64,000 nucleotides of DNA from positions 2,170,001 to 2,234,000 of the forward strand of contig NZ_CP070501.1 of the NCBI RefSeq assembly GCF_018308945.1. The letters are read 5' to 3'. A model generated the notes under the pieces. That model was not told where the DNA came from. It was given only the letters and a program-made list of their open reading frames with translations, and searched no databases. Within the stretch, counting starts at the first letter, position 1. Every line of letters begins with the position of its first letter. The translations under genes and the position numbers were made by a program. This document shows positions 50,026 through 52,853 of the stretch, in pieces. The stretch comes from Agrococcus sp. Marseille-Q4369. GTDB taxonomy: Bacteria > Actinomycetota > Actinomycetes > Actinomycetales > Microbacteriaceae.

Positions 50026-50532
50026 TCAGGGGGCGTCGTCGTGCACGCCGCACGAGCAGCCGACCGCGCCGAGCTCGCGGCTCCGCTCGGTGTAGGCGTG
50101 CAGCACCGCTTGCTCGAAGAGCACCTGGTGCGGAGAGAGGAACTGCTGCACCGCGGCGGGCAGCCGGCCGGCGAAGCGGTGCAGTGGACTGCCGACGGTG
50201 AGCTCGGCCACGTGCACGGCGACGTACACGAGCGAGAGCAGGGAGAAGAGCGTGAGCCCGCGGCCGTCGGGCATGAAGGCGCTCGCCACCGGGATGAGCA
50301 CGACGACCGCGAGGAGGCCGTGCAGCAGCGGCGAGCGTCGCAGCCGCGCCCGCGCGGCGTCGCGCCCGTAGTCGCGCGCCGCGAGCACCGCCGTCGCTCG
50401 AGCGATCTCGTGCGCCTCCTCGTGCGAGGTGCGCTCCTCGGCGGCGATCCTGCCGATGCGCGCAGCCCGGCGCGCATAGCGCTCGATCGCGTCGATCGCC
50501 GATCCGTCGCCCTGCGTGCCCTCGTGGTCCAC
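50026..50532 (-). CDS. Two-TM membrane protein of unknown function
   Basis: 168 residues from GTG 50532, which has GGAGGAGG upstream. The N-terminal 60 residues are charged and helical (IERYARRAARIGRIAAEERT, then YGRDAARARLRR). Two helices follow: LLHGLLAVVVLIPVASAFM and LTLFSLLSLVYVAVHVAELT. A C-terminal soluble part ends with a Cys pair in VGCSCGVHDD. Cys-x-Cys at the end of a membrane protein may bind metal, but no family is recognised. Divergent from the agmatinase-like gene. Confidence 0.72.
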   Translation of the reverse strand: MDHEGTQGDGSAIDAIERYARRAARIGRIAAEERTSHEEAHEIARATAVLAARDYGRDAARARLRRSPLLHGLLAVVVLIPVASAFMPDGRGLTLFSLLSLVYVAVHVAELTVGSPLHRFAGRLPAAVQQFLSPHQVLFEQAVLHAYTERSRELGAVGCSCGVHDDAP

Positions 50533-50688: not shown

Positions 50689-51624
50689 ATGATCGGTCAG
50701 CGGGACGACCCGGGGCTGCCGCGCTACGCGGGCATCGCCACCTTCGCGCTGCTGCCGCAGCGGCACGAGGTCGAGCACGCCGACGTCGCCGTCGTCGGCA
50801 TCCCGTTCGACTCGGGCACGAGCTTCCGCCCGGGCGCGCGCTTCGGTCCGGCGCACGTGCGCGAGCACTCGCGCCAGCTGCATCCGTACCACCAGGTGCA
50901 CGAGTCGTTCCCGTTCCGCGACCGACAGGTGGTCGACGGCGGCGACCTGCGGGTCGGCCCCTACGACATCGAGGCGGCCGTCGAGGCGATCCACGAGCAG
51001 GCGCGGACGCTCGTGCAGGGCGGCACGACCGTCGTGGCGATCGGCGGCGACCACACGATCGCGCTGCCGCTGCTGCGGGCGGCCGCCGAGCGCCACGGGC
51101 CGCTCGCGGTGCTCCACTTCGACGCGCACCTCGACACGTGGGACACGCTGCACGGCGCGAGCATCTGGCACGGCTCGCCGTTCCGCCGCGCCGCGGAGGA
51201 GGGGCTGCTCGACCTCGAGCACTGCCAGCACGTCGGCATCCGCGGCGGCATCTACGACCCGATCGAGCTCGACGACGACGCGCGGGCCGGGTTCGCGATC
51301 ATCCGGAGCGACGACTTCGCCCGCCACTCGCCCGAGCAGCTCGCCGAGCGCATCCGGGACCGCCTCGGCACCGGGCCGGTGTATGTGTCGATCGACATCG
51401 ACGTGCTGGATCCGGCGCACGCGCCCGGCACCGGCACGCCGGAGGTCGCCGGCATCAGCACCCGCGAGCTCTTCGGCGTGCTGCGCGAGCTGCGCGGGCT
51501 CGACATCGTCGGCGGCGACGTCGTCGAGGTGCTGCCCGCCCACGACCACGCGGGCATCACGGGGCTCGCCGCCGCGCACACCGTGTGGGAGCTGCTCGCG
51601 CTCATCCCGCCGCCGTCGCGCTGA
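50689..51624 (+). CDS. Agmatinase/ureohydrolase family protein
   Basis: 311 residues of the arginase/agmatinase fold with its dimanganese ligands: AIGGDHTIALPLL, LHFDAHLDTWDTLHG and SIDIDVLDPAHAPGTGTPE. The loop DSGTSFRPGARFGPAHVRE near residue 40 is shared with agmatinases and guanidinobutyrases rather than arginases. It hydrolyses a guanidino compound to urea and an amine; agmatine, guanidinobutyrate, guanidinopropionate and formiminoglutamate are all open. A symbol such as speB would overstate the certainty. ATG 50689 is chosen for MIGQRDDPGLPRYAG. Convergent with a small repeat peptide gene. Confidence 0.9.
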   Translation: MIGQRDDPGLPRYAGIATFALLPQRHEVEHADVAVVGIPFDSGTSFRPGARFGPAHVREHSRQLHPYHQVHESFPFRDRQVVDGGDLRVGPYDIEAAVEAIHEQARTLVQGGTTVVAIGGDHTIALPLLRAAAERHGPLAVLHFDAHLDTWDTLHGASIWHGSPFRRAAEEGLLDLEHCQHVGIRGGIYDPIELDDDARAGFAIIRSDDFARHSPEQLAERIRDRLGTGPVYVSIDIDVLDPAHAPGTGTPEVAGISTRELFGVLRELRGLDIVGGDVVEVLPAHDHAGITGLAAAHTVWELLALIPPPSR

Positions 51625-51645
51625 GCGGGCAGCCCCCGGACGCAG

Positions 51646-51686
51646 CGCGGCCGCGGGCCGACATCGCTGTCAGCACCGCGGCCGCG
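51646..51686. terminator. Bidirectional GC hairpin
   Basis: CGCGGCCGCGG (51646-51656) pairs perfectly with CCGCGGCCGCG (51676-51686); GACA/TGTC pairs inside the 19-base loop. It lies between the convergent agmatinase-like gene and the 38-residue peptide gene. Confidence 0.55.
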
Positions 51687-51701
51687 GGGGTCGGGGCGAG
51701 G

Positions 51702-51818
51702 CTACTTGGAGCTGCCGCCGCCCATGATGATGAAGTCGTCCTCTCCGCCCATGATGATGAAGTCATCCTCGCCCAGCGGCGAGAGGAGGAGGTGGGTGGG
51801 AAGCTGCTTGAAGCCCAT
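51702..51818 (-). CDS. 38-residue peptide with a tandem EDDFIIMGG repeat
   Basis: ATG 51818 to TAG 51702. The peptide has a leader-like first half, MGFKQLPTHLLLSPLG, then two consecutive EDDFIIMGG units and a short GSSK tail. The repeats are encoded by near-identical 27-base blocks differing only at synonymous or few positions. AAAGGAA lies 6 bases before the ATG. A hairpin follows the stop. No family is recognised. The design (leader, then repeated core) resembles precursors of ribosomally made modified peptides, but no modification enzyme is adjacent; a regulatory or assembly-forming peptide is also possible. It lies 111 bases downstream of an OsmC gene on the same strand. Confidence 0.7.
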   Translation of the reverse strand: MGFKQLPTHLLLSPLGEDDFIIMGGEDDFIIMGGGSSK

Positions 51819-51929
51819 TGGCGTTCCTTTGCGAGTGGTGGTGGGTGGTTCCCTCGCCGGTCCGTCGAGGCCCCTGCGCGGGTCTACTGCTGAATGTAAG
51901 GCATCGCACCCACTTCCGCGATGGCTTTC

Positions 51930-52352
51930 TCAGCCCTCGAGCGTGGCGCTCTCGAGCTGGATCTCGATGCCCGCGAGGGCCTGCGAGACCGGGCAGCCAG
52001 CCTTGGCCTCCTCGGCATGCTTCGCGAACTGCTCCTGGTCGATGCCGGGCACCTTCCCGCTCACCGTCAGCACGCTCGTCGTGATGCCCTTGCCGGGCTC
52101 GAACGAGACCTTCGCGCTCGTGCTGAGCGACTCGGGCGCGTGGCCGGCTTCCTCGAGCGCGTGGGAGAGCGCCATCGCGTAGCAGGAGGCGTGCGCAGCG
52201 GCGATGAACTCCTCGGGCGTCGAGGCGCCGCCCTCCTCGGCGCGCGCCTTCCACGTGAGGTCGAAGCTCGAGCCGGTGCCGAGCGTGGTCGTGCCGGAGC
52301 CGCTGCTGAGCGGCCCGTTCCAGCTGGTGCTCGCGTTCGAGGTGATGGCCAT
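51930..52352 (-). CDS. OsmC/Ohr-family peroxiredoxin-like protein
   Basis: 140 residues. The catalytic cysteines are in HASCYAMALSHALEEAG and AGCPVSQALAGIE. The start ATG 52352 follows AAGGAGG and gives MAITSNASTSWNGPLSSGSG, a typical OsmC N-terminus. It reduces organic hydroperoxides using a Cys pair, protecting the cell under oxidative or osmotic stress. The YaiN/OsmC-type motif SFDLTWKARAEEGGASTPEE places it in the OsmC rather than Ohr branch. Divergent from the FKBP gene. Confidence 0.93.
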   Translation of the reverse strand: MAITSNASTSWNGPLSSGSGTTTLGTGSSFDLTWKARAEEGGASTPEEFIAAAHASCYAMALSHALEEAGHAPESLSTSAKVSFEPGKGITTSVLTVSGKVPGIDQEQFAKHAEEAKAGCPVSQALAGIEIQLESATLEG

Positions 52353-52481
52353 GGAGTCCTCCTTGAGTTCGCGTCGCGCCCTCCGTCGGCGGGCGAGTGG
52401 CCCCAGGCTACGCGCGCAGGCTGGGGGTCGGGTGGTCGGATGCGCGGAGGCACTCGGGCGGGCGCGTGCGAGGATGGGCGC

Positions 52482-52853
52482 ATGACTGAGAAGCCCGAGA
52501 TCGACGCCCCCGAGGGCCCCGCGCCCGCTGACCTCGAGATCACCGACATCACCGTCGGCGACGGCGAGGAGGCGGTGAACGGCAAGCAGGTGAGCGTGCA
52601 CTACGTCGGCGTGACGCACTCGACCGGCGAGGAGTTCGACGCCTCGTACAACCGCGGCGCCCCGCTCGAGTTCCCGCTCGGGGTGGGCATGGTCATCAAG
52701 GGCTGGGAGCAGGGGATCCTCGGCATGCGCGTCGGCGGCCGCCGCAAGCTCGTCATCCCGCCCCACCTCGCCTACGGCGAGCGCGGCGCGGGCGGCGTGA
52801 TCGGCCCGAACGAGGCGCTCATCTTCGTGTGCGACCTGGTCGCCGTCCGCTGA
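52482..52853 (+). CDS. FKBP-type peptidyl-prolyl cis-trans isomerase
   Basis: 123 residues, a single cytoplasmic FKBP domain with no signal peptide. The active-site residues are visible in VSVHYVGVTHSTGEEFDASY, PLEFPLGVGMVIKGWEQGI, GGRRKLVIPPHLAYGERG and NEALIFVCDLVAV. It speeds proline isomerisation in protein folding. GAGGAT lies 6 bases before the ATG and may be a weak -10 for a leaderless transcript. A strong hairpin follows its stop. Confidence 0.95.
   Translation: MTEKPEIDAPEGPAPADLEITDITVGDGEEAVNGKQVSVHYVGVTHSTGEEFDASYNRGAPLEFPLGVGMVIKGWEQGILGMRVGGRRKLVIPPHLAYGERGAGGVIGPNEALIFVCDLVAVR

Follow-up and report, generated by a model that had tools for sequence, protein, structure and literature searches.

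A repeated-unit peptide gene downstream of osmC

The stretch of DNA analyzed here (termed the window) comprises 64,000 nucleotides of contig NZ_CP070501.1 from Agrococcus sp. Marseille-Q4369. On its minus strand, 111 bases beyond the end of a gene for an OsmC family peroxiredoxin, lies a short frame that translates into MGFKQLPTHLLLSPLGEDDFIIMGGEDDFIIMGGGSSK and closes with TAG (Table 1). The peptide consists of an N-terminal segment followed by two tandem units that are identical in protein sequence and that differ at 2 of 27 bases in their DNA (GAT versus GAC and GGA versus GGC), both differences being synonymous and at third codon positions. The DNA pattern GAYNNNNNNATHATHATG, which codes for D-x-x-I-I-M, has two occurrences in the genome of 2.74 Mb, and this frame contains both. 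The features from which the gene was originally predicted (a 38-residue frame with AAAGGAA ahead of it, a stop and a hairpin) have all been located on the minus strand, and the two units do, as had been claimed, agree in protein while differing synonymously in DNA. The observation of a repeated-unit peptide is confirmed and, with the comparisons described below, is stronger than the sequence of one genome could have made it.

Table 1. Features at the peptide locus, in window coordinates
Feature	Positions	Strand	Remarks
Micropeptide coding sequence, 38 residues, stop included	51702..51818	-	ATG at 51818, TAG at 51702-51704; homologues known
N-terminal segment MGFKQLPTHLLLSPLG	51771..51818	-	contains QLPTHL
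Unit 1, EDDFIIMGG, residues 17-25	51744..51770	-	core DDFIIM at 51750-51767
Unit 2, EDDFIIMGG, residues 26-34	51717..51743	-	core DDFIIM at 51723-51740
Ribosome-binding site AAAGGAA	51824..51830	-	5 bases 5' of the start; SD-like in 17 of 17 homologues
GC-rich 18-bp hairpin	51646..51686	-	begins 15 nt past the stop; terminator-like without a T-run; palindrome search agrees
Upstream block ATGCCTTACATTCAGCAGTAG, possible promoter	51884..51904	-	few changes across six type-A genomes
osmC, OsmC family peroxiredoxin	51930..52352	-	TIGR03562, 150.9 bits, over cut-off; constant upstream neighbour, same strand
Agmatinase, convergent neighbour (context only)	50689..51624	+	TIGR01230, over cut-off

Conservation, divergence and distribution of the peptide

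Carriers were located by searching 24 Agrococcus genomes for osmC (which 22 of them match) and by then reading the sequence downstream. An intact related frame lies directly downstream of osmC, on the same strand, in 17 of the 24 genomes (the genome of the window included) and in 15 of the 19 that reach 90% completeness or more with no more than 5% contamination; thus the outcome that would have spoken against the gene, namely non-conservation or frame-breaking changes in related genomes, was not seen. No such peptide is found within 600-900 nt past the osmC match in five genomes, of which G009, G021 and G023 have a close osmC and G003 and G013 a diverged one (55-58% identity), and of which G009, G013, G021 and G023 are near-complete; two incomplete genomes (G010 and G016) have neither an osmC match nor such a peptide. 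In G023 the position that the peptide occupies in other species is taken by a tandem array just after osmC (L074:752-1424), with 10.9 copies of a 62-base GC-rich unit and 96% matches. A protein search of 60 genomes, again including that of the window, had matches in 20 genomes when E values as high as 1 were admitted: in 13 of these (E <0.001) the match is the peptide, all of them being Agrococcus; so is one weak match (G001; E 0.284), and the remaining weak ones are other frames.

The 17 homologues are of several types, termed here A to D. Type A (6 genomes) has FKQLPTHL, further on two [E/D]DDFIIMG units, and as its tail either GGGSL or GGGSSK. Type B (7 genomes) reads xQLPTHLLVTLGGDDDIIM-SSIMG-DDDIIM-stop, together with variants, one of which has QLPIHLL. 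Type C (2 genomes) consists of MKFNKPSRRG plus three DDFIIM in one genome and of MKLSKPGRRG plus two, with DLVITG between them, in the other. Type D (2 genomes) is represented by MRPNKNDLSTSKSGDGWIIMDAVARSGDGWIIMR and by a second member with a single GDPWIIM. Of the 13 peptides of types A and B, 12 contain QLPTHL and that of G004 has QLPIHL; types C and D have no QLPTHL. The motif is retained across types while the N-terminal part is replaced. D-x-x-I-I-M, which is also the criterion by which units were counted, is common to every unit of all 17 homologues, and the unit cores differ by lineage (DDFIIM, DDDIIM, DGWIIM and DPWIIM). Among genomes with at least two units, those within a genome share an identical six residues in 16 of 16 cases, whereas the types differ from one another. 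Counting repeat units across species, a check suggested at the outset, gives 1-3 units among the 17 genomes: three in G001, two in 15 genomes and one in G017.

All 17 frames are intact, with all three stop codons in use and one GTG start. For type B (7 genomes, right-aligned, pairs pooled and uncorrected for relatedness) the pooled pN/pS is about 0.31; within it, the last 18 codons have a pN of 0.062 and a pS of 0.267, and the codons before them a pN of 0.157 and a pS of 0.379. The variable columns of type B fall at codon positions 3:1:2 in the proportion 17:8:7. (In alignment A1 the row for L039 begins one codon 5' of the start and ends one residue short.) Because the frame is kept across species, because type B has this pN/pS, and because GAYNNNNNNATHATHATG occurs only at both units, these sequence comparisons argue that the peptide gene is under coding selection. 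Selection had been proposed earlier from the synonymous differences between the two units; that 2-of-27 difference is weak evidence when taken alone, and it is by the cross-species comparison that the proposal is upheld. In an osmC tree covering 19 of 22 rows (G002, G008 and G017 were left out), 3 of 14 inner branches are well supported, and the peptide types are clustered. The Leu codon CTT within QLPTHL (window positions 51801-51803) is the same codon in 11 of the 13 type A and B homologues; CTC or CTG is usually preferred over CTT for Leu in high-GC genomes, and the kept CTT may hint at a constraint at the level of RNA or of pausing.

An SD-like sequence precedes the start, and a long GC-rich hairpin can be folded 3' of the stop, in 17 of 17 homologues; by a stricter count, 15 homologues have 17-26 pairs, and the stems of G015 and G018, which have a small internal loop, only 6-7 uninterrupted pairs. 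Type-D hairpins differ in sequence and retain the pairing. Some 40-60 bases 5' of the start, TATAA is found in types B and C (8 of 9 genomes, G005 having TATGA) and the type D box is TATAAC or TACAAC; type A has a different conserved block instead (Table 1). Because a sigma-70 consensus scan of 51600-52500 gave no promoter, and a terminator scan of the same interval that requires T residues gave no terminator and did not call the GC-rich hairpin, the promoter and the terminator are putative elements, proposed from their conservation.

Beyond the genus, the distribution was explored with DNA patterns that require two units and fixed I-I-M codons, and which single-unit or diverged relatives elsewhere would escape: a two-unit pattern matched 8 of 398 genomes of the family, all Agrococcus (a genus with 10 members in that sample); a looser pattern matched 3 of 396 genomes of the order, which are the 3 genus members drawn; and a related pattern, run over 84,980 species genomes, matched 21 stretches, 9 of which are this peptide, all in Agrococcus (the records include A. 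baldri, A. lahaulensis, A. pavilionensis and A. sediminis). The 12 stretches from other genera were rejected as relatives, none combining an N-terminal segment with two similar DxxIIM units after it. Membership of the window peptide in a known family was rejected on finding 0 families at E up to 10 in either NCBIfam or Pfam; an Rfam element was likewise rejected as the identity of the region, a search of 51500-52500 giving no match; and so was a mobile origin, with 0 matches among viral contigs and one plasmid match at E 9 that lies inside a STAS-domain protein. Literature searches with the unit and leader strings, with Agrococcus and RiPP, and for OsmC-linked small proteins found no report of the peptide, subscription papers being mostly uncovered. 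These micropeptides form an orphan family, not previously represented in the resources searched and restricted, within the searches made, to Agrococcus.

Gene surroundings and maturation machinery

Neighbouring genes were compared at 15 of the 17 peptide loci (G011 and G022 were left out) by grouping frames of at least 70 residues by mutual similarity. Apart from osmC itself the surroundings vary. On the osmC side there are, with variation, an FAD-linked oxidase and an FKBP-like isomerase, joined at some loci by an antiporter (the names FAD-linked oxidase, antiporter and cold-shock protein were assigned by eye). On the downstream side, which this grouping left empty at several loci, the gene is DHDPS-family in G008, a short-chain dehydrogenase in G001 and G005, a luciferase-like monooxygenase in G018, CstA in G014, a CAP/CWB2 protein in G004 (G017 and G019 having frames that look similar by eye), and in G012 and G002 a small protein that matches nothing in Pfam (with a similar frame in G020); the agmatinase adjoins the peptide only in the genome of the window and in G015. 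Extra downstream frames at 13 loci were chosen by codon-position GC, and 10 of them were run against Pfam (that of G001 trimmed at its start, those of G004 and G014 limited to 400 residues). By eye and by these 10 Pfam scans, no maturation gene was recognised within 0.3 to 7 kb downstream at the 15 loci (about 0.3 kb in G007), in agreement with the earlier statement that no maturation enzyme is adjacent; nor does any transporter or regulator recur beside the peptide at these loci, a LuxR-type response regulator being present in G006 alone, some 1 kb downstream. Such surroundings are unlike those of most RiPP clusters and signal-receptor pairs. An attenuator leader peptide was rejected, inasmuch as the gene downstream is not the same from locus to locus and, in the window, runs convergently. 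A small protein that contains hydrophobic stretches and starts with a conserved ERAxRIGR-like sequence recurs near the peptide in several genomes (on the minus strand of the window at about 50026-50530, and at L113, L115, L040 and L038); two members were scanned, neither with a Pfam match.

Maturation enzymes encoded at a distance were sought across the 24 Agrococcus genomes. PqqD/RRE (PF05402), YcaO (PF02624) and MNIO (DUF692; PF05114) each matched in 0 of 24, and in 3, 5 and 2, respectively, of 14 control genomes. Radical SAM proteins number three in the genome of the window: MiaB, HemW and a Rv2578c-type protein, each over its NCBIfam cut-off. They are housekeeping-like, and none is a dedicated radical SAM/SPASM enzyme; per genome there are 3 to 6 such proteins, and extras, which were counted only, are present both with and without the peptide. 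The PIMT family (PF01135; PCMT) has matches in all 24 genomes, strong ones (E <1e-35) in 15 of them, the genome of the window not being among these: its best match has an E of 8.7e-12 over positions 66-134. Matches of this family in all 24 genomes prove nothing for an Imiditide-type RiPP. A further PCMT match in the genome of the window (G000:C1:1832446-1832730) covers positions 109-207 only, at E 3.4e-9, and elsewhere the matches extend over positions 17-207 at E 1.4e-38 (G022) and 18-177 at E 9.0e-36 (G015); the gene at 1832446-1832730 may thus be broken or truncated.

Interpretation of the repeated unit

A stand-alone, genus-specific micropeptide that acts through its repeated D-x-x-I-I-M strands by binding a conserved partner is the interpretation tentatively adopted here, at a confidence somewhat short of even. 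It is favoured over RiPP-like or pheromone-like precursors because the unit is constrained, the N-terminus is exchangeable, the gene stands alone and the maturation families tested are absent. The gene, with its ribosome-binding site and terminator-like hairpin, would be carried on a short message of its own just downstream of osmC; the peptide would be active whole, or trimmed by general proteases alone; and D-x-x-I-I-M would serve as a short linear motif, that is, an exposed hydrophobic strand docking on a conserved partner encoded elsewhere, with tandem copies raising avidity. We infer the expression unit, the strand conformation, the partner, the lack of dedicated processing and a link through osmC to peroxide stress. 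In the AlphaFold2 model, whose confidence is low (mean pLDDT 65.7, pTM 0.31), the FIIM stretches are drawn as strands at residues 20-23 and 29-32. Against this interpretation, the conservation of QLPTHL in types A and B looks like that of a recognition leader; without processing or modification, a peptide that is short and acidic and contains glycine may be unstable; the structure model is weak; the scans for a promoter and a terminator gave neither; and G009, G021 and G023 have a close osmC with no peptide after it. In any case this is a well-supported small gene without a named family, and its evolutionary signature is unusual: a six-residue repeat that is constant within a genome and variable between lineages, with a replaced N-terminal flank. 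Should the unit be a docking motif, the peptide would offer a simple model, found in nature, of how micropeptides can be multivalent; should it be a signal or product, it would point to peptide chemistry beyond the known RiPP enzymes. It is small enough to be tested directly with synthetic peptides.

The original prediction likened the gene to the leader-plus-repeated-core design of ribosomal peptide precursors, of which the part concerning a selected peptide with a repeated unit is supported and the part concerning a RiPP precursor of known class is not: no adjacent maturase is recognised, PqqD, YcaO and MNIO are absent from all 24 genomes, and the radical SAM proteins are accounted for as above. 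As in RiPP precursors generally, a short frame with an N-terminal segment and a distinct core is present, and a maturation enzyme with or near the precursor is missing from the 15 of 17 loci examined. It is possible, if doubtful, that a QLPTHL-type leader directs an enzyme encoded remotely, and outside the families tested, to modify multiple D-x-x-I-I-M(-G) cores, which are then excised. The conserved QLPTHL of types A and B, the copy number of 1-3, and units that are similar inside one genome and divergent from lineage to lineage all fit such a precursor. The genome-wide search for maturation families covered PqqD, YcaO and MNIO. The chemistry is less accommodating: type-A units have no Cys, Ser, Thr, Lys, Trp or Tyr, so that the Ser, Thr and Lys of graspetide cores are missing from them, and Cys, expected of lanthipeptide cores, occurs in 0 of 17 peptides. 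Moreover, the unit stays while leaders are swapped, and in most RiPP families the arrangement is the opposite one. The RiPP reading is weakened because the maturation families gave no match and because the unit persists as leaders change. The type D sequence GDGWIIM resembles GDGWKVM, which we take to be a motif of the streptide precursor StrA; in contrast to that system, the genome of the window has no such radical SAM enzyme, the K-x3-W spacing is absent, and Trp occurs in only 2 of the 17 homologues. Multi-core precursors do exist, though rarely (PMC5934393), and those of the multi-core microviridin type are likewise short, with an N-terminal part and then repeated short units; the Agrococcus peptide differs from them in having no recognised adjacent maturase, in the lack of Ser/Thr/Lys acceptors in its type-A units, and in pairing a conserved unit with a swapped leader. 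A multi-copy signal or natural product of a new D-x-x-I-I-M class, processed without known RiPP machinery and diversified into lineage-specific dialects, is an unlikely alternative on the evidence at hand.

A reading in which short, hydrophobic, GG-ending units are freed by proteolysis as multi-copy linear signals and sensed by a receptor in the manner of streptococcal SHP pheromones is rather improbable. DDFIIMGG resembles the ends of SHP2 and SHP3 (DILIIVGG and DIIIIVGG in PMC3257209), in which a short hydrophobic unit likewise has Asp first and GG last, and units that are alike in each genome and lineage-specific are what signals would show; yet a likeness over 8 residues is weak, and it is the ends of types A and C that resemble the D/E...GG form, those of B and D being different and without a terminal GG. 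Further differences from the SHP/Rgg system are the 1-3 copies of the unit, an N-terminus that by eye is no hydrophobic signal segment, an actinobacterial host, the absence of the Rgg C-terminal family (TIGR01716) from 24 of 24 genomes (the control matched in Lactococcus lactis, 1 of 14), and the want of a constant receptor or transporter neighbour, the LuxR-type regulator of G006 being the sole case. That the peptide works with OsmC, its Asp and Met binding metal or taking up oxidant, is quite unlikely: where found it always follows osmC, Met is invariant in every unit, and types A-C are rich in Asp; however, adjacency to osmC is not proof of co-regulation, in type D a single Asp is left per unit (DGWIIM, DPWIIM), and the invariant residues are D, I, I and M rather than an acidic cluster. 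As for a small RNA or terminator region in which the frame is incidental, the strong conserved hairpin and the short transcript proposed above would suit it, but it is made very improbable by the intact frames and the use of all three stop codons in 17 of 17 homologues, by their uniform SD sequences, by the codon-position bias and pN/pS of type B, and by the lack of an Rfam match in 51500-52500.

Three other candidates were set aside. A double-glycine export leader was judged by eye, type B having no GG after IIM. Aureocin A53-like bacteriocins are cationic, Trp-rich peptides of about 50 residues without repeats, unlike the Agrococcus peptide. Such bacteriocins, which are unmodified and leaderless and are likewise small peptides of this genus, are reported from Agrococcus sp. 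SL85 in PMC11580447; the leaderless bacteriocin reading was set aside by comparison of such descriptions. For mimicry of ClpP or ArgS no case could be made, single DxxIIM sites being present in both kinds of protein (each named by eye): DECIIM, DQCIIM or DQSIIM in ArgS-like proteins (4 genomes read), and DRDIIM in a ClpP-like protein (the pattern is in 4 genomes, 3 of which were read). In G011, G013 and G018 (L077, L081 and L088) this DRDIIM stands before YINSPGGS, and its likeness to the DDDIIM of type B is probably a coincidence.
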